Source of the DNA: a virus
Strand: one strand, 5' to 3'
Length of the DNA: 30,752 nt
Virus record (IMG/VR): IMGVR_UViG_3300043313_000581
Coordinates: 1-30,752 of that record
Positions 12,345 through 30,401 of this stretch are shown here, one piece after another (the stretch's first letter is position 1; each line of letters opens with the position of its first letter). A program made the position numbers and the translations under genes. Under the pieces are notes generated by a model, which saw nothing but the letters and a program-made list of their open reading frames with translations, was not told where the DNA came from and did no database searches.

Positions 12345-12375
12345 GCGCCCCGGGCGTTGTTGCCACCCGAGGCGC
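12345..12375 (+). promoter_or_regulatory. Leader hairpin with C.A mismatch (copy 1)
   Basis: GCGCC-C-CGGG pairs with CCCG-A-GGCGC: ten base-pair positions around a single C50.A70-type mismatch (12350 and 12370), with an 11-base loop. It would form at the very 5' end of a transcript from the 12335 box and precedes the TTGGAGG and ATG of the secreted-protein gene. No T-run follows, so it is not a typical terminator. Confidence 0.6.
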
Positions 12376-12401
12376 ATGCACACCGGACGTTGGAGGTCAC
12401 G

Positions 12402-12881
12402 ATGTACACCCGCTATCGTATCAGCCTGGTCTCGCTCGCGCTCCTGGCGCTGAGCATCGCCCCGCCGGCATCGGCCGCGCAGGCCGCCGAGCCCGCGCCC
12501 CTCACGCTCCAGGACTTCGCCGGCACCTGGGCGAACCACAACAACTACCTCCGTATTGCGCAGGACGGGACAGCCGCGATGGGCTGGCGCAGAGGTGGGG
12601 CTGGCGTCGAGCCGGGGAGCGCAGCGGTGACGATTGACCGCGTCGAGGGCCGCACGCTCTACGGCACCGCCCTGACGACGAACTACCCCGACGGAATCGT
12701 CGCCGGGCCATTCACGCTCACCGAATACGAGTACGGGGTCGGCTATCTGATGGACGGAGACGCGGTCGGCATGGTGGTGCCCGGCGCGCCGTATGATCCG
12801 CACTACGGAAGAACCCTCTGCGGCCCGCGCTTTGCCGCCGCGCCTGACTGGTTCAAGGCCACGTCCCCGTGCGGCGCCTGA
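12402..12881 (+). CDS. Secreted protein with signal peptide (moron-like)
   Basis: ATG at 12402 follows TTGGAGG. A typical Sec signal peptide (RYRISLVSLALLALSIAPPASAAQA, split here as basic n-region, Leu/Ala core, then ASA-type cleavage site near residue 25-28) leads a ~130-residue domain. That domain starts DFAGTWANHNNYLRIAQDG and ends with two cysteines in LCGP and SPCGA, a pattern seen in secreted actinobacterial proteins. It does not belong to the morphogenesis pathway. It has its own promoter-like box upstream and a hairpin followed by TTTCTT downstream, the usual placement of a phage moron gene expressed from the prophage. An upstream ATG at 12357-frame would sit inside the leader hairpin and is rejected. 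Function unknown. Confidence 0.75.
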   Translation: MYTRYRISLVSLALLALSIAPPASAAQAAEPAPLTLQDFAGTWANHNNYLRIAQDGTAAMGWRRGGAGVEPGSAAVTIDRVEGRTLYGTALTTNYPDGIVAGPFTLTEYEYGVGYLMDGDAVGMVVPGAPYDPHYGRTLCGPRFAAAPDWFKATSPCGA

Positions 12882-12910
12882 GCATGACAGCTGATGCTGA
12901 CTGCCCATCA

Positions 12911-12939
12911 TTGCAGGATATGAGCGGCTGATGTAACCT
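12911..12939 (+). promoter_or_regulatory. Weak sigma-70-like promoter candidate
   Basis: TTGCAG (12911-12916) and TAACCT (12934-12939) with 17-bp spacing lie in the 139-bp non-coding gap between the secreted-protein gene and the prohead protease. Each box matches the consensus only partly. If real, it would start the head-gene transcript carrying the hairpin at 12970-13015. Confidence 0.3.
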
Positions 12940-12969
12940 AGCAGCAACGATCACGCCAAGAGGGCCATC

Positions 12970-13015
12970 AGAGCCCCGATTCCGACGCCCGTAGAGGCGC
13001 AAGGATCGAGGCTCT
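12970..13015 (+). promoter_or_regulatory. Hairpin with C.A mismatch upstream of protease (copy 2; terminator or leader)
   Basis: AGAGCC-C-CGAT pairs with ATCG-A-GGCTCT (10 of 11 positions; mismatch at 12976/13009), enclosing a second stem CGCC/GGCG (12986-12989, 12996-12999). TTTCTT follows, so it could terminate transcription of the secreted-protein gene. However, the protease ATG lies only 5 bases further, and the sole GAGG that could act as its ribosome binding site is inside the 3' arm (13008-13011). It could therefore gate protease translation. Confidence 0.6.
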
Positions 13016-13020
13016 TTCTT

Positions 13021-13584
13021 ATGGCCCTGGAGTACAAAAGCATCCCGTTCGCGGTCAAGGCGGCCGAGCGCAACGCCGACGACACCGGCTGGGAGATCGC
13101 AGGCTTAGCCTCGACGTGGTGGGGCGAGCCCGACGCCTACGGCGACGTCGTGCAGCCAGGCGCGTTCGCCGCGTCGATTGAAGCTCGGCCGACGAAGTTT
13201 CTGTACGAGCACCACACGCCGATCGGCAAGCAGCTTGAGATCCGCGAGACCGACGAGGGCCTCTATGGCCGCTGGTCGGTCGTCGACACCACGGTCGGCA
13301 CCGACGCCTACAAGCTCGCGAAGGCTGGCGTCCTCGACTCGCTCTCGATCGGCTACATCCCGATGGAGTGGGAGATCCGTGGCGACGGCGCCCGCGTGCT
13401 CCAGGCCGTCGAGCTGTACGAGGTCTCGGCCGTCGCGATCCCGGCCAACACGAACGCCGTCATCACCGCCGTCAAGGCGGCTTCCGCGCCGCCGCCCGAC
13501 CCGGGCCCGCGCCTGAGGCTGGGCCTGGAGATCCGTCGCCGGCGCATGGCGCGCCACGGCGTCACGCTAGGAGAACTCAGATGA
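13021..13584 (+). CDS. HK97-family prohead protease (peptidase U35/S78)
   Basis: 187 residues. MALEYKSIPFAVKA is the usual N-terminal strand; then GLASTWWGEPDAYGDVVQPGAF, LYEHHTPIGK (candidate catalytic His 64/65), and KAGVLDSLSIGYIP (candidate nucleophile Ser 107 or 109), followed by LYEVSAVAIPANTNAVI. The C-terminal ~40 residues are Pro/Arg-rich. The enzyme cleaves scaffold or the capsid N-terminal delta region during prohead maturation. The start at 13021 has no exposed Shine-Dalgarno; see the hairpin directly upstream. The stop overlaps the ATG of the next small gene. Confidence 0.94.
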   Translation: MALEYKSIPFAVKAAERNADDTGWEIAGLASTWWGEPDAYGDVVQPGAFAASIEARPTKFLYEHHTPIGKQLEIRETDEGLYGRWSVVDTTVGTDAYKLAKAGVLDSLSIGYIPMEWEIRGDGARVLQAVELYEVSAVAIPANTNAVITAVKAASAPPPDPGPRLRLGLEIRRRRMARHGVTLGELR

Positions 13585-13757
13585 CCAGCAGCAGCCCGAG
13601 CACGCCGCCGATCAAGCCCGAGCGCGAGCCCCGCGACCCGAAGCTGCCGCGTGACCCGTCCGCCCCGGTCGACCCGAACGCGCCGGTCGACCCGAGCACG
13701 CCAACGCCGCCGCCGACCGACCCCAACGCGCCGCCGGCAGAGGAGTCCCAGCCGTGA
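13581..13757 (+). CDS. Small Pro/Asp-rich protein, 58 aa
   Basis: ATG at 13581 follows AGGAG. The sequence is almost entirely Pro, Asp, Ala, Ser and Thr with DPxAPVDP repeats, so it is intrinsically disordered. It sits between protease and capsid genes, overlapping both, where scaffold-like or capsid-associated small proteins are sometimes found. No family is recognised. Confidence 0.6.
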   Translation: MTSSSPSTPPIKPEREPRDPKLPRDPSAPVDPNAPVDPSTPTPPPTDPNAPPAEESQP

Positions 13758-15058
13758 GCATGACGATTCCCGAGGCGCACGCCGAGATCCGTCGGCTCTA
13801 TGACGCGGCGGCCGCGATCGAGAATAAGTACCCGTCAGGGCTGACCCAGGCCGACAACGCCGAGGACTACGCCGAGGCGAAGCGACTGCTCGGCGAGATC
13901 GACGGTCTCGAAGACAAGCTCTCAGGGCTCGAAGACGCCGCCGCTCGGAAGCAGCGCATCCTCGACAACCAGAAGCGGCTCCGCCAGCCGGTCAACGGCC
14001 ACACCCAGCCGGACCAGGGCGACGAGCACAACGCTCACGGCGACGGCGGGACCAAGATGTTCGGTCGTCAGTTCGTCGAGAGCGGCGAGTACAAGCGGAT
14101 CATCGAGAGCGGCGTGCTCAACAACCCGTCGAGCCGGGTCGAGCTCGGCGTCAAGCTCGACGGCTCGCTGCTGCACGAGCTGCTCAGCAAGGCGCTGGTC
14201 CACTCCGGGACCGGCGTCGGCGGGGCGACGATCCGTCCGGACCGGGTCTCGGGGCTCGACTTCCTCTGGCGCCAGACCACGCTGCTCGACTTGATCCCGA
14301 CGTCGTCGACGACGTCGAACATGATCGAGTACTACGAGATGACCACGTCGACGAACGCGGCTGCGCCCGTCGCCGAGGCGACCGTCTCGACTGGTGCGAC
14401 CGGGCTCAAGCCCGAAGGCGCGATCGGCTGGACGCTGCGACAGACGCCGGTCTCGACCGTCGCCGAGTGGGTGCCAGTCACGAACCAGATGCTTGCCGAC
14501 TCGCCAGCCGTACAGTCGCTGATCGAGAACCAGCTGATGACGCACCTGGCGCTGGCGCTGGAGACCCAGCTGATCAGCGGCAACGGCACCGCGCCCAACC
14601 TGCTCGGCATCCTGTCGAACCCGAACATCCTGACGACCGGGCTGGGGGCTGGATCCGGGTCCGCGGCCGACGCCGTCTACCATGCTATGACCGCCGTCAT
14701 GGTGACCGGGCTCTCGAACCCGACCGCGAGCGTGTGGAACCCCGTCGACTTCGAGGCCGTCCGCCTCTCCCGAGAGACCGGAGCCTCCGGCGGCGCCTAC
14801 CTGATGGGTCCGCCGAGCGTGGCCGGTCCGACGACCCTCTGGGGCCGCCCGGTCGTGCTCTCGATCGGCACCCCGGTCGACACGGTGGTCGTCGCCGACT
14901 TCACGCAGATGACGCTCTACGATCGCGAGCAGAGCGCCATCCGTACGGGGACGATCAACGACCAGTTTATCCGTAACATGCAGACGCTGCTGGCGGAGCT
15001 TCGCGCCGCGTTCGCGCTGTTCCGACCGACCGCCGTCTGTCGCGTGACGGGCGCGTAG
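13754..15058 (+). CDS. Major capsid protein (HK97 fold)
   Basis: 434 residues from GTG 13754 (an ATG two codons later is an alternative). Residues ~1-75 form a charged coiled-coil delta domain (AEIRRLYDAAAAIENK, LLGEIDGLEDKLSGLEDAAARKQ). The HK97 fold begins at about 100: LLHELLSKALVHS, LDFLWRQTTLLDLIPTSST, TVAEWVPVTNQMLADSP, LETQLISGNGTAPNLLGIL, SVWNPVDFEAVRLSRET, then the C-terminal DRE and FIRNMQTLLAELRAAFALFRPTAVCRVTGA. It is expected to be cleaved by the protease encoded upstream at the end of the delta domain. Confidence 0.96.
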   Translation: MSMTIPEAHAEIRRLYDAAAAIENKYPSGLTQADNAEDYAEAKRLLGEIDGLEDKLSGLEDAAARKQRILDNQKRLRQPVNGHTQPDQGDEHNAHGDGGTKMFGRQFVESGEYKRIIESGVLNNPSSRVELGVKLDGSLLHELLSKALVHSGTGVGGATIRPDRVSGLDFLWRQTTLLDLIPTSSTTSNMIEYYEMTTSTNAAAPVAEATVSTGATGLKPEGAIGWTLRQTPVSTVAEWVPVTNQMLADSPAVQSLIENQLMTHLALALETQLISGNGTAPNLLGILSNPNILTTGLGAGSGSAADAVYHAMTAVMVTGLSNPTASVWNPVDFEAVRLSRETGASGGAYLMGPPSVAGPTTLWGRPVVLSIGTPVDTVVVADFTQMTLYDREQSAIRTGTINDQFIRNMQTLLAELRAAFALFRPTAVCRVTGA

Positions 15059-15078
15059 GTGGTGAGCGCAGTCGAACC

Positions 15079-15282
15079 ATGACCATCTACCGCGTCGGCG
15101 AGCAGGGGGCGACCGTCTTCAACGAGGACGGGAGCCCCGTCGTCAAGCTCCGTCCTGGGCAGGTCGTCGTGCCCGGGACGGCCGACGCGGCAGCCTCAGC
15201 CTACGAGCGGGCGACGAAGCGCGTCCGCACCTATGACGACAAGGCGATCCGTCCGACCGACCGCGAGGACAAGGGGCTCTGA
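15079..15282 (+). CDS. Hypothetical protein, 67 aa
   Basis: ATG at 15079 with a distant AGGTGGTGAG. The protein begins TIYRVGEQGATVFNEDGSPVVKLRPGQVVVPG, a short beta-rich region, and ends in a basic helix. Its place after the capsid suggests a small head or connector accessory protein. Its stop overlaps the next ATG. Confidence 0.7.
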   Translation: MTIYRVGEQGATVFNEDGSPVVKLRPGQVVVPGTADAAASAYERATKRVRTYDDKAIRPTDREDKGL

Positions 15283-15869
15283 TGGCGGCGTACACCGACC
15301 CGGCCAGGATCGCGGCGCATCTCGGCACAACGTTCTCCGCCGAGCAGGCAGCTCAAGCGGCCGTCGTCGCCGACGCTGTCACGGCGTGGATCGACCAGCG
15401 GACCGGGCGATCCTGGCAGGGCGGGGGAGCGATCGCTGACGAGCTCCATCTGATCGTGACCGACCGCGTGTATCTGAACGCAGCGCCCGTCTCCGCGGTC
15501 TCGTCGGTCGCCGTCCATCCGGGCACGACGCACGCCTCCTGGACGCCGCTTGGGGCCGACGACGCGCTGCTGTTCGACCCGATCCGCGGCGTGGTGCTGC
15601 TGCCGATCGGCTACGGCGGGTACTACGCGCAGGTCTCGTATACCAGCGTCGGCGACGGGCCGCCCGACGACATCGCCCAGGCGGCCGACGTCCTGGCGGC
15701 AGATCTCATGCAGACGACGCTCAATCCCGAGTCGGCCGGCGCCGAGTCGGTCTCCGTCGGCCAGAACGACATCACGGTCCGCTACGCCGGCGCCGGTGGG
15801 CAGCAGAGCGCCAGCGTCAAAGCCGCTGTGATGGCCGTCGACATGCACCGACTTCCGGTCGTCGCCTGA
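15282..15869 (+). CDS. Head-tail connector (gp6/gp15-like)
   Basis: 195 residues. The N-terminal YTDPARIAAHLGTTFSAEQAAQAAVVADAVTAWIDQRTGRSW is the helical bundle typical of HK97 gp6-like adaptors; a beta region (VYLNAAPVSAVSSVAVHPG, LLPIGYGGYYAQVSYTSVG) and a further helix (DDIAQAADVLAADLM) follow. It would form the ring docked under the portal. TGATG start overlap and a following ATGA-type junction place it in the head-completion operon. Confidence 0.8.
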   Translation: MAAYTDPARIAAHLGTTFSAEQAAQAAVVADAVTAWIDQRTGRSWQGGGAIADELHLIVTDRVYLNAAPVSAVSSVAVHPGTTHASWTPLGADDALLFDPIRGVVLLPIGYGGYYAQVSYTSVGDGPPDDIAQAADVLAADLMQTTLNPESAGAESVSVGQNDITVRYAGAGGQQSASVKAAVMAVDMHRLPVVA

Positions 15870-16225
15870 TGCCGCCGAGCCTGACAGGCATCCGAGCGCG
15901 CAGGGCCGCGTTCCTGGTCGGCCGCTGCTCGGTCTCGCGCTACACCGAGACCTCGACGTCCGACGGAATAGCGCATACCTGGGCCGACGTAGCGACGGAC
16001 GTGCCGTGCGAGATCTGGCCGTCTGGAGCGTCCGCGGCCGAGGGGCTGGGAGCTGGCGCCGGGCTGCGCGCGCTCTCCGCCTGGACCGTGGCGCTGCCGT
16101 ACGGGCAGGACGTCACGGTCAGAGACCGCATCGTCTCGTCGGACGGACGGACGTTCGAGGTGCAACGGGCCGATATCAGGACGTACGAGGCGTCGAGAGA
16201 CTGTATTTGCGAGCTGGTGAGCTGA
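15869..16225 (+). CDS. Head-closure/head-tail adaptor protein
   Basis: 118 residues. It is beta-rich: CSVSRYTETSTSDGIAHTWADVATDVPCEIWPSGA, then WTVALPYGQDVTVRDRIVSSDGRTFEVQRAD. This pattern of a described property, an amphipathic strand pair and a 'DG RTFEV' hairpin fits head-closure (stopper)-type proteins, and the gene position agrees. No specific motif allows a finer call. Confidence 0.65.
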   Translation: MPPSLTGIRARRAAFLVGRCSVSRYTETSTSDGIAHTWADVATDVPCEIWPSGASAAEGLGAGAGLRALSAWTVALPYGQDVTVRDRIVSSDGRTFEVQRADIRTYEASRDCICELVS

Positions 16226-16226
16226 C

Positions 16227-16394
16227 GTGGACCTGCTGACGGTCGTCCTGGTCGTCGTGATCCTGCTGCTCGTCTTCGGCGGGACGGCCTGGCCGCGCCC
16301 GGCCGAGGGCGCGGCCGGGCTGAACCTCGTGCTCTATGTCCTGGCGGCGATCGTCCTGATCGTCGTCGTCGTCCGCTTGGTGGGGGCGCTCTGA
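16227..16394 (+). CDS. Two-TM small membrane protein, DUF3309-like
   Basis: GTG at 16227 gives 55 residues: a hydrophobic helix (LLTVVLVVVILLLVFGG), a short TAWPRPAEGAAG loop and a second hydrophobic helix (LVLYVLAAIVLIVVVVRLV). The WP-containing loop followed by a Gly-containing entry to the second helix resembles the DUF3309 family of tiny membrane proteins. It is out of place within the head-tail joining genes. The Shine-Dalgarno is weak. It could serve as a holin or have a membrane role unrelated to virion assembly. Confidence 0.6.
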   Translation: MDLLTVVLVVVILLLVFGGTAWPRPAEGAAGLNLVLYVLAAIVLIVVVVRLVGAL

Positions 16395-16395
16395 C

Positions 16396-16746
16396 GTGGC
16401 CGGGCAGACGAGCGTGACGATCAAGGTCATCAGTAACAAGATCCCGCAGCTTCCGGCCGCGTTGAAGGCGCAGGTCGTCGAGCAGGTCAAGAAGTCGACG
16501 CTCGACGTCCAGGCCAGAGCGCAGCAGGTCGTTCCTGTCCGCACGGGGACGCTCCGTCGCTCCATTCACTCGATCTTCGAGCAGGACGGCTTGCGCGGGA
16601 TCTGTGGGCCGTCGGTCGACTACGGCCTGCCCGTCGAGATGGGCACGCGCCACATGGGCGCTCGGCCGTACATGCGGCCAGCGGCGGAGTACGTGCTGCC
16701 GAAGTTTGCCGACGAGCTGAAACGCATCCTGGGCGGGCTGAAGTAG
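16396..16746 (+). CDS. HK97 gp10-like tail/neck protein
   Basis: 116 residues from GTG 16396. It contains VEQVKKSTLDVQARAQQVVPVRTGTLRRSIHSIF, then YGLPVEMGTRHMGARPYMRPAAEY. The VPVRTGTLRRS and EMGTRHMxARPYMRPA motifs are diagnostic for the HK97 gp10 family (head-tail joining or tail-completion protein). A C-terminal helix follows. The stop TAG directly abuts the next ATG. Confidence 0.9.
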   Translation: MAGQTSVTIKVISNKIPQLPAALKAQVVEQVKKSTLDVQARAQQVVPVRTGTLRRSIHSIFEQDGLRGICGPSVDYGLPVEMGTRHMGARPYMRPAAEYVLPKFADELKRILGGLK

Positions 16747-17172
16747 ATGGCCGGCGTCGAGGCGCAGAAGGTCGCCGCGTTCGTGTTCGACACGCTCAAG
16801 GCCGACGCGCAGTTGACCACCATGCTCGGCGGGCGGATCTACCGCGACCGCGTGCCGGCCGCGGCTGCTCTACCGGCCGCGACCGTCGGCGTCGTCTCGG
16901 CGACCGACTTCGGGACGCTCGGGGCTGTCCGCGTCGTGAACATGGTGCTGGTCGACGTCCGCGTCGTCACGAGCGGATCAAGCTACGGGCCGATCAACGG
17001 CGCTGCCGACCGCGTCGACGCCGTGCTCCAGAACCGTCGCGGCACCTCGGGTGGCGTCGAGGTCGTCGAGCTCCGCCGCGATCAGGCTCAGCTCTACCAG
17101 GAGGACGAGGCCGGCGCCACGTTCTGCCACATCGTGCAGACCTACCGCACCGAGGCGTACGCGAGCAACTGA
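16747..17172 (+). CDS. Tail completion/terminator protein (DUF3168-like)
   Basis: 141 residues. An N-terminal helix (AQKVAAFVFDTLKADAQLTTML) leads GGRIYRDRVPAAAALPAATVGVVS, then strands and NGAADRVDAVLQNRR. The order helix, GxRIYxxxxPxxAxxP, strand and D-x-V-x-x-V helix is typical of DUF3168-type tail terminators, which cap the tail tube. Its position just before the tube gene agrees. Confidence 0.78.
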   Translation: MAGVEAQKVAAFVFDTLKADAQLTTMLGGRIYRDRVPAAAALPAATVGVVSATDFGTLGAVRVVNMVLVDVRVVTSGSSYGPINGAADRVDAVLQNRRGTSGGVEVVELRRDQAQLYQEDEAGATFCHIVQTYRTEAYASN

Positions 17173-17183
17173 GAGGAACCGTC

Positions 17184-18176: not shown

Positions 18177-18207
18177 CCGAAGCGAATCGTCACACGCTGG
18201 AGGGCCC

Positions 18208-18800: not shown

Positions 18801-18803
18801 GCC

Positions 18804-21800
18804 ATGCCGTCCGCGTCGGCCGTCGCCGAGCTTCAGGTCGTCGTCGGGGCAGACGTAAGCGCCGCCGAGCGCGAGCTCGCATCGCTCGGGACGAAGGTCG
18901 GCTCGGTCGGCTCGACGATCGCGACCGCGTTCGGCGGCGCCGCCATCGCTGGCATTGCCGGCCTGGCCGCTGGGCTCGGCGCCTCCGTGGCTGCGGCGTC
19001 CGACTTCGAGAAGTCCATGTCGGGCATCAAGGCCGTCTCGGGCGCGACGGCAGCGCAGATGGAGGACATGTCGAAGCTGGCGCTCCAGCTGGGAGCGGAC
19101 ACGTCGTTCTCCGCAAAGGAGGCCGCCGACGGGATCGGCGAGCTGGTCAAGGCCGGCGTCTCGATGTCCGACATCATGGGCGGCGCCGGCAAGGCGTCGC
19201 TCGACCTGGCGGCGGCCGGCGGGATCGCCGTGGCTGACGCCGCGACGTTAGCAGCTCAGGCCATGAATATCTTCGCCATCAAGGGCGCCGACATGGGCAA
19301 GGTGGCCGACACGATCGCGGGCGCGGCCAACGCCTCGGCCATCGACGTCAACCAGTTCAAGTTTTCCCTGTCGGCGGCTGGCACGGTCGCGGCGACGGTC
19401 GGGTTCTCGTTCGACGACCTGGCGCAGGCGATCGCCGTCATGGGCCAGAACGGGCTCGTCGGGTCGGACGCTGGGACGTCGCTCAAGACGATGATGACGG
19501 CGTTGCAGCCGTCGACGAAGGCGGCGACCGAGAAGTTCAAAGAGCTGGGCCTGATCACCAAGTCGGGCGCGAATGCGTTCTTCGACGCGACCGGCAAGGT
19601 CAAGTCCATGTCGGAGGTCGCCGGCATCCTCCAGAAGTCGCTCGCCGGGCAGACCGAGCAGCAGCGATTGGCGACGCTCCAGACGTTGTTTGGATCCGAT
19701 GCCATCAGAGCGGCGGCGATCCTGGCGAAGACCGGCGCCGAAGGCTTCAACGACATGGCCGACGCGATGGGCAAGGTCTCGGCGGCCGACGTCGCGTCGA
19801 CCAGGCTCGACAACCTCTCGGGCTCGCTCGAAAAGCTCGAAGGCTCGCTCTCGACGGTCGCGATCACGGTCGGGCTGGCCCTGACGCCGCTCCTGAAGGA
19901 CCTCGTCGACTACGGGACGGAGATTGTCAACGCCTGGGGGCCGACGATCGCGCTCTGGGCCAATCAGCTCCCGGGCGCCATCCAGGCGACAATCGCGGTC
20001 CTCAAGGCGCAGTTACAGCCGCTCGTCGAGTGGTTCACGACGACTGGCCTGCCGGCGCTACGCGGCGCGCTCGGGACGATCGGCACCGCGGTCGCCACGC
20101 TGACGACGACCGCCTGGCCGCTGCTCCAGGCCGCCATGCAGGCCGTGGCCGACTGGTGGGCGACCGTCTGGCTCCCGACCGTCGCGACGGTCGTCTCGTG
20201 GCTGGTCGACCACGTCGGCGCCGCGCTGACCTGGCTGACGACGACCGGCTGGCCGCTCCTGCAAGCCGCGATGGTGGTCGTCGGGGCCTGGATCACGACG
20301 ACGCTGGTCCCGACGCTGACGGCGGCCTGGTCGTGGCTCACGGAGAAGCTCGGCGCTGCGCTGACGTGGCTCTCTGAGACCGGCTGGCCGAAGCTCGGCG
20401 AGGCCGCGAACGCCGTCCAGAACTGGATCAAGGGCACCCTGATCCCGACCCTGACCGATTGGTACACCTGGCTCGACCAGAAGCTCCAGCCGATCTATAC
20501 GTGGTTCACCGAGCAGGGCTGGCCGCTGCTGCAAGCGGCCGGTGCGACCGTCTGGACGTGGCTGACCGGGACGCTGTTCCCGGCGTTATCCGAGTGGTAC
20601 GACTGGCTCCAGGCGCGGCTGTCGCCGATCTTCCAGTGGTTCGTGACCGACGGCTGGCCGAAACTCCAGGCGGCCGGCGCCGTCGTCGTGACCTGGGTCA
20701 CGGGGCCGCTCGCGGCGGCGCTCAAGGAGTGGTACGAGTGGCTCCAGGATCGGCTCTCGCCGGTCTTCCAATGGTTCACGACCGAAGGCTGGCCGGCGTT
20801 CCAGACGGCCGGCGGCTTCGTCTGGAACTGGCTCGTCACCAACCTGATCCCTGCGCTTCAGGACTGGTATCACTGGCTGGGCGAGGAGGCGAAAAGCGCC
20901 GCCGACTGGTGGATAGCGCAGGGCTTCCCGAAGCTGGAGATCGGCTTCAAGGAGCTCAACCCGCAGGTCGCGCAGGGGGCGAAGGACTGGAATGCCTTCG
21001 CCGACGCGCTCTCGCGGACCGACGCTGGCGAGAACTGGGTCGCGATCCTCGCGAACCTGAGCGCGTTCGGGAAGTACCTGATCGAGAACATCAACCTCGG
21101 CGACTGGTTCAACGACATCACGAACGGCGCCGCCGCAGCAAGCGGCTGGGCCGACTACATCGCCGAAGCGGTCGCCTGGATAACGCGAACGATCAAGAAG
21201 TGGTCGGACGCGCTCCCCGGCCAGCGCAACCTGCCGGACGTCGAGGAGCCGCCGAAGCCGCCGTCTGGCAATTCGGGCGGCGGCGGGGGTGGCGGGAGCG
21301 GCGCGGTCCCGGCGCCCCCCAACTTCGTGGCGCCCCCGGATCCGAGCCCGACGCCGTCTCCCGCGCCATCCCCGAGCCCGACGCCATCCCCGAGCCCGTC
21401 CCCGAGTCCGAGCCCGAGCCCGTCGCCCGGCGGCGACATGCCGACGACGACCGCCGGCTGGATCGCGCTGACGCGCCAGTTGGGCGGCGAGTACGGGCTC
21501 GGCGACTGGTTCGTGAACCAGATCAGGCAAGAGTCCGGGTTCAACCCGAACGCCCAGTCTCCGGCGGGAGCGCGCGGCATCGGCCAGTTCATGCCCGGGA
21601 CCGGCGCTGCGATGGCCGCGCAGCTCGGGGTGTCAACGGCCGCGTTCTGGGCGGACCCACGGCTCCAGCTTCGGGGAGCCGCGCTCCATATGCACGACCT
21701 GGTCGGACGATACCAGGGCGACGTCCTCGCCGGACTGGTCGGCTACAACGCGGGCACCGGCAACGCCGACTATCTGCGGCCGTTCCTGCACGACATCCCG

Positions 21801-22121
21801 GCCGAGATCTGGCAGCTTGAGAACACCTGGAAGGACAAGCAGCCGCGCGAGTACGTCCGCGCGATCCTGGGCTATCAAGAGGGCGGCTGGGCCGGGCTGC
21901 ACGGCCCTGAGCTGGCCTGGCTCGGCGAGCGAGGCCCCGAATATGTCGTCCCGAACGCGGCGCTGCGCGGGGGATCTGCGGGGGCCATGCAGTCGGTCTC
22001 GATGCCGATCGTGATCGGCGACCGCGTGATCGAGGAGCTGTGGATCACCGGCCGCGACCTGGCGATCAGGCGTGGCCGCGTGCCGGGCGCCGGCGCAAGC
22101 TCGATGGGGTCGCTCGCATGA
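18804..22121 (+). CDS. Tail tape measure protein with lytic transglycosylase domain
   Basis: 1105 residues. N-terminal ~360 residues match the TP901 tape-measure core: VVVGADVSAAERELASLG, SDFEKSMSGIKAVSGATAAQMEDMSKLALQLG, FSAKEAADGIGELVKAG, then ALTPLLKDLVDYG. Residues ~415-715 are seven Trp-rich units of 45 residues. A Gly-rich run (~827-835) and a Pro-Ser-Pro linker (~845-875) lead to a transglycosylase/lysozyme-fold domain: NQIRQESGFNPNAQ with candidate catalytic Glu 910, then GARGIGQFMPGTG and LVGYNAGTGNADYLRPF. The C-terminal ~90 residues (ERGPEYVVPNAAL) resemble tape-measure tails. It measures tail length and probably opens cell wall at infection. Start ATG 18804 has a weak Shine-Dalgarno; it ends in ATGA overlap. 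Confidence 0.95.
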   Translation: MPSASAVAELQVVVGADVSAAERELASLGTKVGSVGSTIATAFGGAAIAGIAGLAAGLGASVAAASDFEKSMSGIKAVSGATAAQMEDMSKLALQLGADTSFSAKEAADGIGELVKAGVSMSDIMGGAGKASLDLAAAGGIAVADAATLAAQAMNIFAIKGADMGKVADTIAGAANASAIDVNQFKFSLSAAGTVAATVGFSFDDLAQAIAVMGQNGLVGSDAGTSLKTMMTALQPSTKAATEKFKELGLITKSGANAFFDATGKVKSMSEVAGILQKSLAGQTEQQRLATLQTLFGSDAIRAAAILAKTGAEGFNDMADAMGKVSAADVASTRLDNLSGSLEKLEGSLSTVAITVGLALTPLLKDLVDYGTEIVNAWGPTIALWANQLPGAIQATIAVLKAQLQPLVEWFTTTGLPALRGALGTIGTAVATLTTTAWPLLQAAMQAVADWWATVWLPTVATVVSWLVDHVGAALTWLTTTGWPLLQAAMVVVGAWITTTLVPTLTAAWSWLTEKLGAALTWLSETGWPKLGEAANAVQNWIKGTLIPTLTDWYTWLDQKLQPIYTWFTEQGWPLLQAAGATVWTWLTGTLFPALSEWYDWLQARLSPIFQWFVTDGWPKLQAAGAVVVTWVTGPLAAALKEWYEWLQDRLSPVFQWFTTEGWPAFQTAGGFVWNWLVTNLIPALQDWYHWLGEEAKSAADWWIAQGFPKLEIGFKELNPQVAQGAKDWNAFADALSRTDAGENWVAILANLSAFGKYLIENINLGDWFNDITNGAAAASGWADYIAEAVAWITRTIKKWSDALPGQRNLPDVEEPPKPPSGNSGGGGGGGSGAVPAPPNFVAPPDPSPTPSPAPSPSPTPSPSPSPSPSPSPSPGGDMPTTTAGWIALTRQLGGEYGLGDWFVNQIRQESGFNPNAQSPAGARGIGQFMPGTGAAMAAQLGVSTAAFWADPRLQLRGAALHMHDLVGRYQGDVLAGLVGYNAGTGNADYLRPFLHDIPAEIWQLENTWKDKQPREYVRAILGYQEGGWAGLHGPELAWLGERGPEYVVPNAALRGGSAGAMQSVSMPIVIGDRVIEELWITGRDLAIRRGRVPGAGASSMGSLA
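20112..20924 (+). repeat. 135-bp (45-codon) repeats in the tape measure gene
   Basis: The GWP-type anchor (A/G-W/F-P, as in GWPLLQAA, GWPKLGEA, GFPKLEIG) recurs at 20112, 20247, 20382, 20517, 20652, 20787 and 20922, exactly 135 bases apart each time. Each unit also carries W..TLxPxL..W..WL. An earlier LP anchor at 20046 is 66 bases before the first, about half a unit. Confidence 0.9.
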
Positions 22122-24521: not shown

Positions 24522-24532
24522 GGGGTGGACGC

Positions 24533-25036: not shown

Positions 25037-25050
25037 TGGGAGCGTAGCCG

Positions 25051-26226
25051 ATGCCCTGGACACCGCCGAGTGATCCGGTCACCAGTACCGTTATCACGGT
25101 CGCGTATGCCGTCGCGAACCTCCTGACGCAGATTCGCTGGCTGCGCCTGATGACCGGGAATGCCGACCCGCCGGGGTCGAACTACGTCGTCGTCGCCGAC
25201 ACGACGTCCGCGACGACCTGGCGCAAGGTCCCGTCCGACGCGATCGCCGACGGCGCGATCACCGACGCGAAGCTCCAGACCCCGAAGGTCAGCCGGAGTG
25301 GCGACGTGATGACCGGCGACCTGAACATCAACCGCGGCGGCGGAGCGGACGGCTACCTGACGCTGGGCGCGGGCACGGCGCACTATCTCGGCTGGGACGG
25401 CGGCAAGTTCGTGTTCTCGCCCCACCCGGTGCAGGTGCCCGGGCCCCTGACGGCCGCGGTCGGGCTGACGTCGATCGGCGACATCATGGCCTATCGCGGC
25501 GCCGGGACCACGGGCTTCGTGGTGCTCGGCAACAACCCGGCCTTCTACATCGGCTGGGACGGCACGAACATCGTCACGCACACCGGCAAGGTCTGGACCG
25601 CCGGCAACGACGGCCCCGGCTCCGGGCTCGACGCCGACACGGTCGCCGGGAAGACGCCGACCGCGACGCCGACCGCGAACGCACTGCCGCTCGCGAACGC
25701 CAGCGGCAAGCTCGACGCCTGGGTAACGTCAGGGTCGACCGACGCTGTCTCGGTCGGCGGGCGGGTGCCGACCGCGACGCCGACCGCGAACGCCATCCCG
25801 ATCGCGGACGCGGGCGGCAAGCTCGACGCCTGGGTCACGGGCGGGGCCGGGGCGTTTGTGCCGAGCGGACTGATCGCGCTCTGGGTCGCGTCCGATACAC
25901 CGCCGACCGGCTGGGTCTTCGAGACCACCTTCACCCAGAAGTTTGTCGTGGGGGCCAATAACGGTGTAACCGGCTTCCATCGCAACGACACCGGCGGAGC
26001 GGCGACGCACGACCACGGGTTCGGCACGTCGCACACCGGCGGCAGCGTCGCCGCCGACGCGAGCACGCCGATCCGCGTCCAGGTGAGCGGCACCGGGACC
26101 GACCCGCAGGCGCCGCAGAGCGGCCACGGGCACGGCTTCACGAACCCCGGTGCCCACACGGTGACCAGTGCGAGCCTGAACCACCTGCCGCCGTACATCG
26201 CGGCGCACTACATTCGGAAAACCTGA
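25051..26226 (+). CDS. Tail fibre protein with internal repeat and collar-like C-terminus
   Basis: 391 residues; GGGAGC precedes ATG 25051. The N-terminus has IADGAITDAKLQ and SGDVMTGDLNINRGG, a pair of motifs common in phage fibres. Two 37-residue units follow (25648-25758 and 25759-25869; each has PTATPTANA then GKLDAWVT). The C-terminus resembles a tail-collar fibre: VPSGLIALWVASDTPPTGWV, FVVGANNGVTG, then THDHGFGTSHTGG and GHGHGF with a final NHLPPYIAAHYIRKT. It probably binds host surface. Confidence 0.88.
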   Translation: MPWTPPSDPVTSTVITVAYAVANLLTQIRWLRLMTGNADPPGSNYVVVADTTSATTWRKVPSDAIADGAITDAKLQTPKVSRSGDVMTGDLNINRGGGADGYLTLGAGTAHYLGWDGGKFVFSPHPVQVPGPLTAAVGLTSIGDIMAYRGAGTTGFVVLGNNPAFYIGWDGTNIVTHTGKVWTAGNDGPGSGLDADTVAGKTPTATPTANALPLANASGKLDAWVTSGSTDAVSVGGRVPTATPTANAIPIADAGGKLDAWVTGGAGAFVPSGLIALWVASDTPPTGWVFETTFTQKFVVGANNGVTGFHRNDTGGAATHDHGFGTSHTGGSVAADASTPIRVQVSGTGTDPQAPQSGHGHGFTNPGAHTVTSASLNHLPPYIAAHYIRKT

Positions 26227-26498
26227 TGACGGAGCAGACGGCGACGATGTGGGACGCCGACCTCGGCGAGGCCGGGCGCAAGCTGACGGCGGACGAGCTG
26301 GTCGCGCTGGAGGCGATGCACCAGTGCGCCCTGCTCGGGCGGATCGCGGTGGCGCTGGAGGACGCGCTCGTCCATCTCCGATCGCTGGAGGGCCGCTTTG
26401 ACCGTCTGGAGCAGTTCCTGACGCTGGCCGACGTCCGCTACCCGCGCGGACGGGCGCCGCTGCCGGCGCTGCCGGCCGTGGACGAGGCGGCCGTATGA
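26226..26498 (+). CDS. Small helical protein, 90 aa
   Basis: ATG at 26226 overlaps the fibre stop (TGATG). It is strongly helical with heptad-like spacing (VALEDALVHLRSLEGRFDRLEQFLTLA), a likely coiled coil. No transmembrane segment is present, so it is not an obvious holin although it directly precedes the endolysin. Function unknown. Confidence 0.65.
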   Translation: MTEQTATMWDADLGEAGRKLTADELVALEAMHQCALLGRIAVALEDALVHLRSLEGRFDRLEQFLTLADVRYPRGRAPLPALPAVDEAAV

Positions 26499-27655
26499 CC
26501 GAGATCGAGCAGTTCATCCGCGAGGCGGCGGCAACTCGGGGCATCAATCCCGACATCGCCATCCGAGTCTGCCTGACCGAGGGCGGGGTGACGGAGCCTG
26601 CGCGGTTGGGGGATTTCAGCGGGCCGCCGTGGTACAGCGGCAAGTCCTGGTGGGCGCTCCAGCTCCACTACGGCGGCATCGGCACGCCCTGGGCGGGCTT
26701 TGGCCACACGGCTGGCATGGGCAACGGCTTTACGGCCCTGACGGGCTGGGCGGCTGGCGATCCAGCGGCCTGGCGCGACGCGGCCAGGTACGGCCTGAAC
26801 AGAGCCCGCACGGGCGGCTGGGGGGCGTGGTACGGCGCGGCCTCGGTCGGCATCACCGAGTTTATGGGCATCGACCGCCAGGTCGCCTGGGACGCCAATG
26901 CCGAGGTCTGGGACTACGAGACGGGCCAGTCGCCCGCGCTGCCGAAGGTCGTCTACTCGCCGAGCGAGCCGCCGCACCCGCAGGACAGCGATTTTGACTG
27001 TTCACAGGACTCGACCGAGTGGGCGCTCTGGAGCGTTGGGCGCCGGCCGAAGGATCAGTGGCTGACCCAGACCATGATCGCCGAGGGCGTTTTAAGTTAT
27101 CAGCTCGGGCTCATGGACGCGAGCGGCGCGGGACTGGCCGCGTTCATCACCAGGCACTACGGCGAGGACGGTTTCGAGGCGTCAAACCAGGACCCGGTCT
27201 CGTTCGACGAGTTGGCCGAGGACTGCGGGCGCTACCCGATGCTGATCGGCGGCCGCCGCTGGGGCGCGGGTGGGCACTGGTCCGGGCTGCGGGCGTACGA
27301 CGTCAGCCGCGATGTGCTGCTCCTGGCGAACCCGGCCGCGAATTACTTCGGAATAAATCAGACCATGACCCGCGAGCAGTTCGCGAGGCTGGGCCCGTTC
27401 AGTTGCGTGCACCTCACGCACGACGACCTCACGGAGCCGATCGCGGACCCGACGCCCGTGCCGCCGCCCGTGCCAGTCTACCCGCCGCCCGAGGAGCTGG
27501 TCGCCCAGATCGCCGCGCAGCAGCGGTACATCGCTGAGCTGGAGACCCGGCTGGGGGTAGCGTCCGTCGACTACGCCAACGACCTCGACGGCCTGGCTCG
27601 CGGCGTGGCGAACGTCGCTAGCGCACTGCGGGCGCTGCATCCACGGCCCTCCTGA
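26495..27655 (+). CDS. Endolysin: lysozyme-like domain plus C39-like peptidase
   Basis: 386 residues. Residues ~1-135 look like a lysozyme/transglycosylase-like domain: INPDIAIRVCLTEGGVT with candidate Glu 29, then SWWALQLHYGGIGTPWAGFGHTAGMGNGF. Residues ~160-310 read as a C39-like cysteine peptidase: FDCSQDSTEWALWSVG (C169), GAGGHWSGLRAYDVSRDVLLLANPA (H261, N279). A Pro-rich linker (about 320-330) and a short helical tail (LVAQIAAQQRYIAELETRLG) complete it. It would cut host peptidoglycan at the end of infection. No signal peptide or transmembrane segment is seen, so a holin is expected elsewhere. ATGA overlap with the upstream gene. Confidence 0.85.
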   Translation: MTEIEQFIREAAATRGINPDIAIRVCLTEGGVTEPARLGDFSGPPWYSGKSWWALQLHYGGIGTPWAGFGHTAGMGNGFTALTGWAAGDPAAWRDAARYGLNRARTGGWGAWYGAASVGITEFMGIDRQVAWDANAEVWDYETGQSPALPKVVYSPSEPPHPQDSDFDCSQDSTEWALWSVGRRPKDQWLTQTMIAEGVLSYQLGLMDASGAGLAAFITRHYGEDGFEASNQDPVSFDELAEDCGRYPMLIGGRRWGAGGHWSGLRAYDVSRDVLLLANPAANYFGINQTMTREQFARLGPFSCVHLTHDDLTEPIADPTPVPPPVPVYPPPEELVAQIAAQQRYIAELETRLGVASVDYANDLDGLARGVANVASALRALHPRPS

Positions 27656-27683
27656 GTGGGTCAGGAAATCCCAGATAGGTCGG

Positions 27684-28019
27684 TCACTCAGTCCGGGCCG
27701 CTCGGCGTTCGGTACTCCCTCGCTGAATGCGCTCCAGCCGCTCTCTGCGCTGCTCGGGAGTCATCGCCGCCTCGGCCTGCCGGCGGTCCCATTCACCCGG
27801 CTCCCAGACGGGGCAGCCCCCGTTCTCGCACGTCTCGGGCTCCAGGCCGGACCCGATACGACGGAGCCCCTCCATGATGTCGTCGGCGGTCATCTCCGCT
27901 TCGAGCTTGTCCCACCATCCGGGGTTCAACGCCTCGGAGTGGCCGTGGCAAACCTCATGCGGGGTGCGGCGCCCGCAGTACAGGCACCGTGAGTAGCAGA
28001 GGATGACGGCGGTTTCCAT
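27684..28019 (-). CDS. Cys-rich hypothetical protein, 111 aa
   Basis: Minus strand. The ATG at 28019 is preceded by GAGAGAG; a further in-frame ATG four codons upstream (28031) lacks a better site. The N-terminus has two CxxC-like pairs (CYSRCLYCGRRTPHEVCHGH), a later CENGGC, and a long Arg/Glu helix at the C-terminus (QRRERLERIQRGS). Probably metal-binding; function unknown. It is the last gene of the minus-strand cluster and converges on the endolysin with a 28-base gap. Confidence 0.65.
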   Translation of the reverse strand: METAVILCYSRCLYCGRRTPHEVCHGHSEALNPGWWDKLEAEMTADDIMEGLRRIGSGLEPETCENGGCPVWEPGEWDRRQAEAAMTPEQRRERLERIQRGSTERRAARTE

Positions 28020-28048
28020 TGCTCTCTCCATGCTTCAGGTATGGGGCT

Positions 28049-28324
28049 TTATGACGGTCGCTCTTCGAGTACGGCCCGTGCCTCCTCGCTCCACTCCAGC
28101 GCCCCCTTCGCATTGCTGGGCTTGTTGCTGAGGCTCAGGACGGTCGAGAGGTGGCCGAGCCGGCCGGCGGCCTTCTCCAGCGCCAGCCGCAACCGTTCGA
28201 CCTCGATCTCATGAGGGCAGGGCAAGTGAGCCGGGATATCGGCGTGGCAACCGCACGGGCACCCGCGCCCCTTGCAGTGGTCTCGCGGGTAGTTGAAGCA
28301 GCAGTCCTCGGTGTGCTCCGCCAC
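28049..28324 (-). CDS. Cys-rich hypothetical protein, 91 aa
   Basis: GTG start at 28324 on the minus strand with GGAGG upstream. The first 37 residues hold many Cys and His (CCFNYPRDHCKGRGCPCGCH, then a further CPH), a likely metal-binding knuckle. A charged helix (EVERLRLALEKAAGRLGHL) follows. The 5' part overlaps the 3' end of a small membrane-protein gene in another frame. Confidence 0.65.
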   Translation of the reverse strand: MAEHTEDCCFNYPRDHCKGRGCPCGCHADIPAHLPCPHEIEVERLRLALEKAAGRLGHLSTVLSLSNKPSNAKGALEWSEEARAVLEERPS

Positions 28325-28448
28325 CGCTGAACCTCCGCACCAGCCAGATGATCCCCGCCGCGCCGGCTGCCCCGGCGATGACGCCCCCGACCACCAACGC
28401 GTACATCATGCGCTCGACATCGCGCCCAAGGTTGTCCACAGAAATCAC
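28209..28448 (-). CDS. Small single-TM protein overlapping its neighbour
   Basis: Minus strand; GTG at 28448 directly after the stop of the upstream gene (GTGA), or the GTG at 28439 with better spacing from GGAGGA. A transmembrane helix (MMYALVVGGVIAGAAGAAGIIW) follows a short basic start, then RRFSGGG. The remaining ~35 residues are read in a frame overlapping the next gene by 116 bases and look like a shadow, so only the N-terminal half is well supported. Confidence 0.5.
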   Translation of the reverse strand: MISVDNLGRDVERMMYALVVGGVIAGAAGAAGIIWLVRRFSGGGAHRGLLLQLPARPLQGARVPVRLPRRYPGSLALPS

Positions 28449-28720
28449 TCCTCCGAGTCGGCATGGGGGATTACGGCGGCCTCTCTCCTGATCGTTTGGC
28501 TGGCGCCACGATCCTGAGCGGGGGCCTCCAGCAGATCAGCCAGCGCGTCGGCCAGGGTGTGCCACTGGTCACACTCGGCCATCAGCCGCTCGATCTCCTG
28601 CTCGGCGCCGTCAAGCGCCTGCTGAAGCCTGACCATCTCGTCAGGCTGCGGGCCGGCATCCTCGGCCAGTTGCTGCTGGTACTCCTCTTCCGTGCGTGGC
28701 ATCCACGGTGGGTCGATCAT
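28445..28720 (-). CDS. Hypothetical coiled-coil protein, 91 aa
   Basis: Minus strand, ATG at 28720 preceded by AGGAGGAG. It is acidic with a long helix (DEMVRLQQALDGAEQEIERLMAECDQWHTLADALADLLE) typical of a coiled coil. Its stop overlaps the start of the next minus-strand gene. No family is recognised. Confidence 0.7.
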   Translation of the reverse strand: MIDPPWMPRTEEEYQQQLAEDAGPQPDEMVRLQQALDGAEQEIERLMAECDQWHTLADALADLLEAPAQDRGASQTIRREAAVIPHADSEE

Positions 28721-28755
28721 CGCATCTCCTCCTGACGAACCTATTGCGTCTTTCT

Positions 28756-29058
28756 TTACTCACGCTCCTGGTCGTGACTCTGGCGGTGCAGCACGGCTGC
28801 GACCATATCGGCGGGCTCGGGCCAGCCGTAGGCCATCGTCAGCGAGTAGGTGACCGCCCCATCGGCACGGTCGGGGGTGTCGTTCCCCATGTCGAGCACG
28901 ACCTCCTCGAAGTGCTCGACAAACGCCGACTGGTCCATCTCACCCCAGTCGGCCATCCGTCGCCCATAGAGGAAGGCGTACGCCTTCCCGACCTCGGGGT
29001 TCGTTCGAAAGAAGTGCCCGCAGTCGTGGCACATCGGGGCATCTATTCCAGTTGCCAT
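28756..29058 (-). CDS. Hypothetical protein, 100 aa
   Basis: Minus strand, ATG at 29058 with GGAGG upstream. It has a CxxC pair with a His (CHDCGHFFRTNPEVG), then an acidic helical region (SAFVEHFEEVVLDMGND) and SLTMAYGWPEPADMVAAVL. No family is recognised. A sigma-70-like promoter lies just upstream. Confidence 0.7.
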   Translation of the reverse strand: MATGIDAPMCHDCGHFFRTNPEVGKAYAFLYGRRMADWGEMDQSAFVEHFEEVVLDMGNDTPDRADGAVTYSLTMAYGWPEPADMVAAVLHRQSHDQERE

Positions 29059-29082
29059 AAGTCCTCCACTCGAAGGGTGGGT

Positions 29083-29110
29083 AAAGTAATCACGATACTG
29101 TTCGGCTCAA
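29083..29110 (-). promoter_or_regulatory. Sigma-70-like promoter for the 28756-29058 gene
   Basis: Read on the minus strand: TTGAGC (29110-29105), 16-base spacer, TACTTT (29088-29083), followed 24 bases later by the ATG at 29058. TTGAGC matches four of six -35 positions. Confidence 0.4.
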
Positions 29111-29247
29111 CGCCGCGTGGCGCAGCGCTCGCAGCGGAAGGCGTACTCGACGCCGGCTTCGTCCAGGTGGACCATCGCCCAGCCCGGCGGCAGATCCCCC
29201 GTGGTCACTGCCTCGGCGCCGCAGTCGCAGCGGTACGTGTAGCTCAC
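29107..29247 (-). CDS. Zinc-ribbon protein, 46 aa
   Basis: Minus strand, GTG at 29247 preceded by GGGAGAAA. It reads SYTYRCDCGAEAVTTGDLPP, then a short middle and YAFRCERCATRR. The CxC and CxxC pairs ~30 residues apart suggest a small zinc ribbon. It sits between the OB-fold protein gene and the 100-residue gene. A longer reading of this stretch in another frame (29090-29311) is Arg-rich and looks like a shadow. Confidence 0.65.
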   Translation of the reverse strand: MSYTYRCDCGAEAVTTGDLPPGWAMVHLDEAGVEYAFRCERCATRR

Positions 29248-29276
29248 CGTTTCTCCCAGCTTGAGCTGTGGACGCC

Positions 29277-29699
29277 TCAGAAGGCGTCCACGTTGTCGGT
29301 CTCGGTCTCATCGTCTCGCAGCACCCAGCGCTCGAACGACTCTGCGATCTTCAAGACGTCGCCGCTCTTGAGCGATGGCCGAGCGGCCGCGAACTCGGCC
29401 GCGGCCTTGAGGATAGCGAGGCGGGTGATGGTCCGATCCTTCTGACTGGGAGCTGCCGGCGCATCAGAGCCGCCGCGCACGGGCGAGGGCGCTACGCCAT
29501 CAGACGGGGCCACGGCACGAAGAAAGCCGGCCTTGTCGAGCGTGCAGGTGACCGAGGCGCCGCGCTCCGGGAGCATGACGCCGACGGCGAACCGCGAGAC
29601 GTTGAACCAGGACTCGTGGCCTTCGAGCTTCAGCCCCTTCTCGTTGACCGAGCGGACGATGCCCGTCACCAGCTGGTCGGCGCTGCCGTTGACTGCCAT
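29277..29699 (-). CDS. OB-fold-like, putative ssDNA-binding protein
   Basis: 140 residues, minus strand; ATG at 29699 overlaps the preceding stop (TGATG). The N-terminal ~65 residues form a compact beta region (LVTGIVRSVNEKGLKLEGHESWFNVSRFA, then VTCTLDKAGFLRAV), resembling the OB-like domain of a phage/mobile-element family linked to replication or single-stranded DNA. The C-terminal helices (ITRLAILKAAAEFAAARPSL, DVLKIAESFERWVLRD) match the second conserved block of that family. A Pro/Ser-rich linker joins the two. ssDNA binding is inferred, not shown. Confidence 0.75.
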   Translation of the reverse strand: MAVNGSADQLVTGIVRSVNEKGLKLEGHESWFNVSRFAVGVMLPERGASVTCTLDKAGFLRAVAPSDGVAPSPVRGGSDAPAAPSQKDRTITRLAILKAAAEFAAARPSLKSGDVLKIAESFERWVLRDDETETDNVDAF

Positions 29700-29860
29700 C
29701 ACGCGGCCACCTTCACGGGCTGTGCGGCGACGACGCGCTCAGCGCGCTCGATCAGCTCCGAACAGGTGCCGCAGCAGAGGCCCTGCTTACGGTAGCGGCA
29801 CGATGCCAGGTGGATGTCGCGGTACGCAATCGGGTCGGGTGCTACGATGCGGTGTGCCAT
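29699..29860 (-). CDS. Small Cys-rich protein, 53 aa
   Basis: Minus strand, ATG at 29860, preceded by GAGGAG at good spacing. It begins AHRIVAPDPIAYRDIHLASC and has four Cys in the segment CRYRKQGLCCGTCSELIERA, followed by a helix. It is the first gene of the minus-strand operon behind the divergent promoter. No family is recognised. Confidence 0.7.
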   Translation of the reverse strand: MAHRIVAPDPIAYRDIHLASCRYRKQGLCCGTCSELIERAERVVAAQPVKVAA

Positions 29861-29889
29861 GTCGAGATCACTCCTCGGTGTGGTGCTGG

Positions 29890-29918
29890 CGCGGTCGGGG
29901 GTAACAGCCCCGGCCGCG
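29890..29918 (-). promoter_or_regulatory. Leader hairpin with C.A mismatch (copy 3)
   Basis: Read on the minus strand: CGCGG-C-CGGGG pairs with CCCCG-A-CCGCG, ten pairs around one C.A mismatch with a 7-base loop (CTGTTAC). It lies about nine bases from the expected transcript start and ahead of the GAGGAG and ATG at 29860. The outer stem is CGG/CCG where copies 1 and 2 have GCC/GGC, which is compensatory change around the same C.A. Confidence 0.6.
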
Positions 29919-29933
29919 TCGCTTCATGTGGTG

Positions 29934-29942
29934 ATTGTACCA
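29934..29942 (-). promoter_or_regulatory. Extended -10 for the minus-strand operon
   Basis: TGGTACAAT on the minus strand (TACAAT at 29939-29934) is a good extended -10 in the divergent region between 29860 and 30003. No convincing -35 is seen upstream. Transcription would start near 29927. Confidence 0.55.
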
Positions 29943-29966
29943 GATAGCAGACCATACCCGCCATGC

Positions 29967-29996
29967 TTGCGCAGCCCATACCAAGCCGCGTATCAT
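29967..29996 (+). promoter_or_regulatory. Promoter for a leaderless mRNA (TTGCGC-18-TATCAT)
   Basis: TTGCGC at 29967-29972, 18-base spacer, TATCAT at 29991-29996. The ATG of the next gene begins at 30003, six bases beyond the -10, so transcription would start at or next to the A of the start codon. No Shine-Dalgarno precedes that ATG. Confidence 0.6.
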
Positions 29997-30002
29997 TTGG
30001 GC

Positions 30003-30350
30003 ATGGACACTGAAGCGGCGGCCCTAGCTTACAAGCGCTGGGCGAAGGCGAAACGGACCACTAAAACCTGCCCGTTCTGCGGGCAGGCATATCGCGGCGT
30101 CAAGGAGCAGGTGTACTGCACACCAGCTCACCAGCAAGGGGCGGCCAACCGCAGGCACAGGGAGAAACGTCGAGCTGGAGCGCTACCAGGCAAGCCCGAT
30201 CCGCTGCCGGTCGTCCCCATCGACGAGCGCCGTGCCGTCCTGGTCGCCAACGCGCTCGACCAGGCCGAGCGCGCCCGAGCCAGGGGCGACGATGCGGGCG
30301 CAGCGATATTCGAGCGGGTCGCGGCCGAGGCAGCACGTGCCGAGGCGTAA
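30003..30350 (+). CDS. Zinc-binding hypothetical protein, 115 aa (leaderless start)
   Basis: ATG at 30003, directly downstream of a -10 box. The N-terminal part has a zinc-knuckle-like segment (TCPFCGQAYRGVKEQVYC, then TPAHQQGAANRRHREKRR). It matches the small phage/mobile-element zinc proteins of the CxxC...YCSxxC type, but the last Cys is replaced by His (CTPAH). The C-terminal half is an Ala/Arg/Glu helix (VLVANALDQAERARARGDD). It may bind nucleic acid through the zinc and basic segment. It opens a rightward operon. Confidence 0.7.
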   Translation: MDTEAAALAYKRWAKAKRTTKTCPFCGQAYRGVKEQVYCTPAHQQGAANRRHREKRRAGALPGKPDPLPVVPIDERRAVLVANALDQAERARARGDDAGAAIFERVAAEAARAEA

Positions 30351-30358
30351 CGTAGAAT
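30351..30358 (+). promoter_or_regulatory. -10-like CGTAGAAT box (second copy)
   Basis: The same octamer as at 12333-12340, here directly after the TAA at 30348-30350. TAGAAT is at 30353-30358. No -35 is visible. Expected start of transcription is about 30365, just before a leader hairpin. Confidence 0.45.
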
Positions 30359-30370
30359 AGCCACAGAGAT

Positions 30371-30401
30371 GCCCCCGCGCAGCCTGGACGCTGCCGAGGG
30401 C
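30371..30401 (+). promoter_or_regulatory. Leader hairpin with C.A mismatch (copy 4)
   Basis: GCCC-C-CG, a bulged C, and GCAGC pair with GCTGC-CG-A-GGGC, with a 6-base loop. The C.A mismatch is at 30375/30397. An AGGAG and the GTG at 30429 follow 16-28 bases downstream. The arrangement box, hairpin, SD, start is the same as for the secreted-protein gene at 12402. Confidence 0.6.

Follow-up and report, generated by a model that had tools for sequence, protein, structure and literature searches.

Short hairpins placed just after early promoters in uncultured soil phages form a covarying class of element (class A) that is unlisted in Rfam. Judged by its pairing, the conserved C.A mismatch by which this element was first noticed is a stable G.U pair viewed from the wrong DNA strand, and the strand under selection appears, from the sequences compared, to be the one antisense to the adjacent gene. 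We put at about even the chance that the three copies h1, h3 and h4 are promoter-proximal, one-way terminator-like hairpins, selected in the antisense direction, that would stop opposing transcription. The window, meaning the whole stretch of DNA analysed, is an IMG/VR virus record of 30,752 bases with a G+C content of 69% and belongs to a tailed phage. Its features are listed in Table 1. A DUF5131 protein (Pfam PF07505, E 2.7e-42) is encoded close to the left end of the contig, at 1303-2712.

Table 1. Hairpins, promoter boxes and genes of the window
Feature	Position	Strand	Basis or remark
Terminase	6247-7746		
Portal	7761-9734		
-10 promoter box of h1	12333-12340	+	CGTAGAAT (hexamer TAGAAT, 12335-12340); from sequence; same box in L002, L007, L012 and at h3
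h1, class A hairpin	12345-12375	-	Two C.A mismatches on plus strand; stem continuous on minus strand, where both are U.G, then TTTGATTC
Signal-peptide protein gene downstream of h1, 159 aa	12402-12881	+	
h2, class B, terminator-like hairpin before capsid-protease start	12970-13015	+	Outer arms AGGGCCAT/ATGGCCCT cover the ATG
Capsid maturation protease, downstream of h2	13021-13584	+	PHROG 80, E 1e-42
Capsid	13754-15058		
Tape measure	18804-22121		
Early gene, 141 aa, query for h4 relatives	29277-29702	-	
First gene of leftward early operon, 53 aa	29699-29860	-	
h4, class A hairpin	29890-29918	+	C.A on minus (promoter) strand; U.G and a continuous stem on plus strand, where the tail is TCGCTTCATG
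-10 box of leftward early operon	29934-29939	-	TACAAT (extended, TGGTACAAT); expected transcription start about 29927; from sequence, relatives with same layout
-10 box of h3 operon	30351-30358	+	CGTAGAAT
h3, weakest class A candidate	30371-30401	-	GCCC-C.A-CG with a bulged C on plus strand; L022 copy identical
Gene after h3, 73 aa	30429-30650	+	GTG start

An earlier, sequence-only reading had described h1 to h4 as four copies of one element with an invariant C.A mismatch. All four hairpins are present where it placed them, with one C.A on the strand it gave; the second C.A of h1 adjoins the loop. The grouping holds for h1, h3 and h4, which are conserved class A hairpins, and fails for h2, which has a different structure. 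The arms CGGCCG...CGACCG, attributed at that stage to h3, are those of h4 on the minus strand. The bare plan of a stem of 4 or more bp, a C.A, a C-G and a G-C pair is by itself not above chance, as it matches 29 times on both strands of the window against a mean of 20.8 in shuffled sequence, and 8 of 100 shuffles reached 29 or more. Chance does not account for the length of the stem, for its placement behind a -10 box or for the way relatives conserve it.

Relatives of h4 were gathered with the 141-aa early gene as the query, giving 12 loci at first and 73 later. About 30 lineages of related viral contigs have a hairpin 10-20 nt past the -10 box, with stems that are very different between groups and yet paired. 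The element is a single hairpin of 27-33 nt with a spacer of 6-8. A scan for one-mismatch hairpins after promoters, which treated A.C and G.U alike, returned 8 with C.A, 2 with G.T and 2 with A.A. When 20 distinct copies, window h4 not included, were aligned without gaps, both sides had changed in 10 of 13 pairs; the covariation score was reached in none of 500 shuffles, and sliding the pairing partner destroyed the signal. With E below 1e-4 as the limit, the covariance model R1 matched the promoter strand of 27 loci, and it also recovered h4 of the window (28 bits, E 0.0015). The expectation of further copies in related phages is borne out, with strongly covarying stems. Eight of the additional model matches, at E 0.0003-0.1 in full contigs, were examined, and all were set aside as chance hits resembling coding DNA. 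The comparison with Rfam suggested at the outset gave no counterpart: at the gathering score there were no matches in the window, and seven loci gave sub-threshold matches at chance level only. A description of the class A element was not found in the open-access literature. Isolate phages gave neither a nucleotide match to the window nor a relative of the 141-aa early gene. A relative of that gene with 57% identity was found on a contig of 3.7 kb from a metagenome-assembled genome of the Chloroflexota, which is a hint at a Chloroflexota host for these phages and not an assignment.

The pairing differs sharply between the two strands. On the promoter strand, 35 distinct hairpins contain 371 Watson-Crick pairs, 59 A.C or C.A, no G.U and 2 other combinations, whereas the antisense strand of the same hairpins has 59 G.U and no A.C, with 430 of 432 cells paired. 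Mean folding energies are -17.0 kcal/mol (sense) and -24.3 kcal/mol (antisense), the antisense fold being the stronger in 34 of the 35. Within the window every C.A is a G.U on the complementary strand, and the folds there are stronger by 5-9 kcal/mol in all four hairpins. The bias is uniform in at least 15 lineages with differing stems (sign test, 6e-5), a figure that uses our own grouping of lineages and not a formal phylogenetic count. It does not stem from the search, since one scan was equal for A.C and G.U, and folding of the promoter strand, as done in the other, gives G.U the advantage on that strand. Because the evolution of a structure tolerates G.U and not A.C, the 59 to 0 ratio indicates that the selected pairing would lie on the opposite strand, and a leader RNA of the adjacent gene, whether a 5' stabiliser, a protein-binding leader or a translation switch as once suggested, is for the same reason not the simplest reading. 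As a control, T-tailed palindromes collected from the same loci by a strand-blind scan show 11 G.U against 2 A.C on the strand of the T-run; 4 of these 11 are class A hairpins in antisense orientation, among them h1 with TTTGATTC, and the remainder stands at 7 against 2. In this element the G.U/A.C balance indicates cleanly which strand of a promoter-proximal hairpin is selected.

The mismatch itself is not invariant. Its site holds U-A in L047 and L054 and C-G in L069 and in relatives of h2, and other copies have the mismatch at shifted positions or as A.C; Watson-Crick replacement, which the first description had named as counting against it, is therefore seen in some relatives. Sporadic A.C occurs at further stem positions and in either order (L082, L104, L053, L099, L100 and h1). 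Such scatter is expected if G.U drifts neutrally on the antisense strand, and not if C.A is specifically recognised. These exceptions, together with the reversed A.C at position 10, the lack of G.U on the promoter strand and an h1-family stem that begins at or before the expected +1, make it rather unlikely that the hairpin acts as a sense leader with a functional C.A (an A+.C wobble), that is, as a 5' hairpin of the early mRNA which is bound by a protein or the ribosome or which protects the 5' end. That explanation would nevertheless account for the C.A being retained in most lineages despite completely changed surrounding stems, for the 3' arm reading CGA in most of them, and for a hairpin that precedes the ribosome site, at +10 or +13 relative to the expected start. 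That phage leader RNAs of this kind make up a family, with a C.A conserved amid changing pairs as a wobble-shaped mark for a phage or host factor controlling the early genes, seems to us unlikely. Of the proposed conserved cis-acting phage RNA, the recurring, covarying, promoter-proximal hairpin in related phages is upheld and the leader role for the adjacent gene is not.

On the antisense strand the class A hairpins have an unbroken stem of Watson-Crick and one or two G.U pairs, with a U-rich stretch behind it, much like an intrinsic terminator. On the strand of the gene, C.A or A.C mismatches occupy the same positions and the stem lacks a following U-run. As one-way terminators, their most likely role, they would act on RNA polymerase arriving from the opposite side, chiefly on read-through from the late operon, which would cross the early operon antisense, meet the hairpin and stop just short of the early promoter and the control region. 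Early transcription and translation would pass the weakened sense hairpin. We infer that transcription may terminate at the class A element and that the mismatches may have been favoured for weakening the sense hairpin, and not simply tolerated. If this holds, phages would use stops that act in one direction, placed where an operon begins, to shield the lytic control region from opposing transcription, with the mismatches keeping the sense hairpin harmless.

The gene order is consistent with such a role. In all five mapped genomes (the window, G001, G008, G029 and G035) the short early operon bearing the hairpin converges on the long structural (late) operon, operon direction being taken from reading-frame maps; a tape-measure HMM gave too few matches. 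The h4-type copies in these five genomes would lie at the end of the opposing transcription unit, a position that is not evident for h1 and h3 of the window. Between 27655 and 29890 of the window no other convincing late-direction terminator was found. In L052, L057-L059 and L086-L092 another, better late-direction terminator lies closer to the late genes, and there the class A element would be at most a backstop. A hairpin GCCCCCGGCTG...CAGCGCGGGGGC with a T-tail, in the late direction, recurs 1-4 kb from the early promoter in L057, L058, L059, L086, L087 and L092 and is perhaps the main late terminator.

The stable GC-rich hairpin of intrinsic terminators is found when the 35 hairpins are read antisense; the U-tails are imperfect. 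Antisense tails average 5.0 T per 10 positions (range 3-6, often interrupted) against 0.94 in sense, and that of h4 has 4 T in 10 (TCGCTTCATG). The T-run reported as absent is indeed absent from the promoter strand, but the opposite strand of h1 ends in TTTGATTC. At the matching place 74 control promoters have 2.9 A, so the antisense T-richness partly reflects ordinary A-rich transcript starts; these and the frequent ATG or GTG at +1 could account for part of it. The antisense pairing and the tails would also fit an antisense small RNA made inside the early operon, its 3' end formed by the hairpin, that silences the early genes; OOP of lambda and sar of P22 have a similar layout. By-eye inspection of the aligned group showed no conserved antisense promoter in the first gene, and we regard such an RNA as quite improbable.

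A DNA operator was also considered, namely a palindrome that overlaps the early transcription start and binds the phage repressor, with arms that differ along with the repressors. The overlap with that start, the Xre-type repressor gene adjoining in L022 and the ability of palindromes to imitate covariation speak for it; the arms, however, differ among three copies in one genome, the spacer length varies (6-8), and an operator would not lead one to expect that all changes are transitions or that the strand bias is fixed (59 to 0). An operator is on balance very unlikely. The expected start of the early leaders (L060-L104, and 29927 on the minus strand of the window) is mostly ATG or GTG, precedes the hairpin by 9 or 12 nt and is often in frame with the downstream gene, and leaderless translation from this codon is possible. 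That the hairpin is a coding effect, lying inside a short leaderless reading frame from the ATG or GTG at +1 of h4-type leaders, is highly improbable: RTG stands at +1 in most leaders, and in most of the GAGCAGG group the frame matches the downstream gene, but the start codon is absent in L047, L050, L059, L087 and L089, the reading frame is a different one or runs into a stop in the window, L046, L051, L052, L075, L088 and L099, and paired stem changes are non-synonymous (L092, L104, L087).

Several known systems resemble the proposed one-way terminators in part. Unidirectional terminators are a recognised class (PMC4731013), and the class A hairpins are like intrinsic terminators in having a GC-rich hairpin with a U-rich tail in one direction only, at the place where opposing transcription would enter a promoter. 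They differ in that they lie antisense inside the leader of the gene they would protect, in their conserved sense A.C mismatches and in a weak U-tail. The putL and putR RNAs of HK022 are likewise structures shortly after phage early promoters; they comprise about 70 nt with two stem-loops, and the copies are alike in sequence (PMC9378689), whereas class A is one hairpin of about 30 nt, free in stem sequence and stable on the other strand, and does not qualify as a put RNA. Inverted repeats in leaders before start codons also occur as the cluster K ESAS of mycobacteriophage TM4, which have sequence-conserved arms and are tied to many copies of the 13-bp SAS GGGATAGGAGCCC (PMC3203893). Class A arms vary freely, the window has one SAS-like site, and assignment to the ESAS is not warranted. 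That site is the ribosome site of the h3 gene, TGGATAGGAGTCC (30412-30424), which matches the SAS at 11 of 13 positions in a single copy and is probably merely a strong ribosome site.

On the plus strand h3 reads GCCCCCG...CGAGGGC. Near it, L022 and the window differ by single-base indels only, all outside the stem, which argues that h3 is not constrained as coding sequence. In the neighbouring gene (30003-30350) the repressor-like C-terminal half (IDERRAVLVANMLDQAERARARGDD...) is kept relative to L022 and the N-terminus is zinc-finger-like in place of the Xre domain, suggestive of a domain swap at the immunity position.

The h1 locus is the weakest point of the one-way terminator proposal, and h1 and h3 fit it less well than h4. 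The 3' end of h1 on the minus strand is ...GGGGCGC-TTTGATTC. Its relatives L002 and L007-L009, together with L012-L014, which have an altered lower stem, retain the C.A after a CGTAGAAT box; in a mismatch-tolerant pattern scan of viral contigs the close relatives of h1 had C.A, and the unrelated L023, L026 and L027 had C-G. The placement of h1, h3 and h4 near a transcript start is correct insofar as all lie just after -10 boxes. In the h1 family, however, the hairpin begins 4-6 nt past the box, at or before the expected +1, so that the sense transcript may lack part of the stem. In the window h1 is co-oriented with the late genes and no obvious opposing transcript reaches it; in L012-L014 the moron cassette is inverted, an orientation that fits a one-way terminator.

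Morons are extra phage genes with their own promoter and terminator, and the 159-aa signal-peptide gene after h1 is a probable moron. It has its own promoter and is flanked by h1 and h2, but h2 differs from a moron terminator in being part of the protease leader even in relatives without the signal-peptide gene. The signal peptide (M[HY]TRYRI...) and the leader are common to the window (12402-12881), L002 (2280-2861) and L007 (1881-2351), with a different mature domain in L007, and the two seem to travel together as a module. Immediately upstream of the h1 promoter, 12174-12332 encodes a Com-like zinc ribbon of 52 aa (Pfam PF10122, 23.7 bits against a cut-off of 22.9). Com of phage Mu is a translational activator that targets an mRNA hairpin. 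As a hairpin-binding protein the zinc ribbon was dropped from consideration, L007-L009 and L012 having different sequence upstream of the leader.

The remaining hairpin, h2, was rejected as a fourth class A copy on account of its other location, its T-run and its C.A, which is not conserved and is replaced by C-G in L002, L004 and L011. Its promoter is located about 30 nt upstream, and with its T-run h2 directly adjoins the capsid-protease ATG; no Rfam match to this leader was found within the window. Judged by sequence, h2 looks like an attenuator or terminator ahead of the capsid module, its outer arm also lying over the start codon. Among relatives of the protease a hairpin is present at this site in 18 of 19 loci, L015 looking different. 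These leaders consist of a promoter of the TTGCGN-17-TAGACT type, about 50 nt, a GCCCC...GGGGC hairpin and a T-run, then directly the ATG, usually without a ribosome site. In h2-type hairpins T-run and G.U are both on the strand of the gene (34 G.U against 3 A.C, a count from the sense fold that is biased towards G.U), which served as a further control for reading the selected strand from the pairs. The protease leader, with its strong promoter and an outer arm complementary to the start-codon region, is conserved between the window (12950-13032), L003-L012 and L016.
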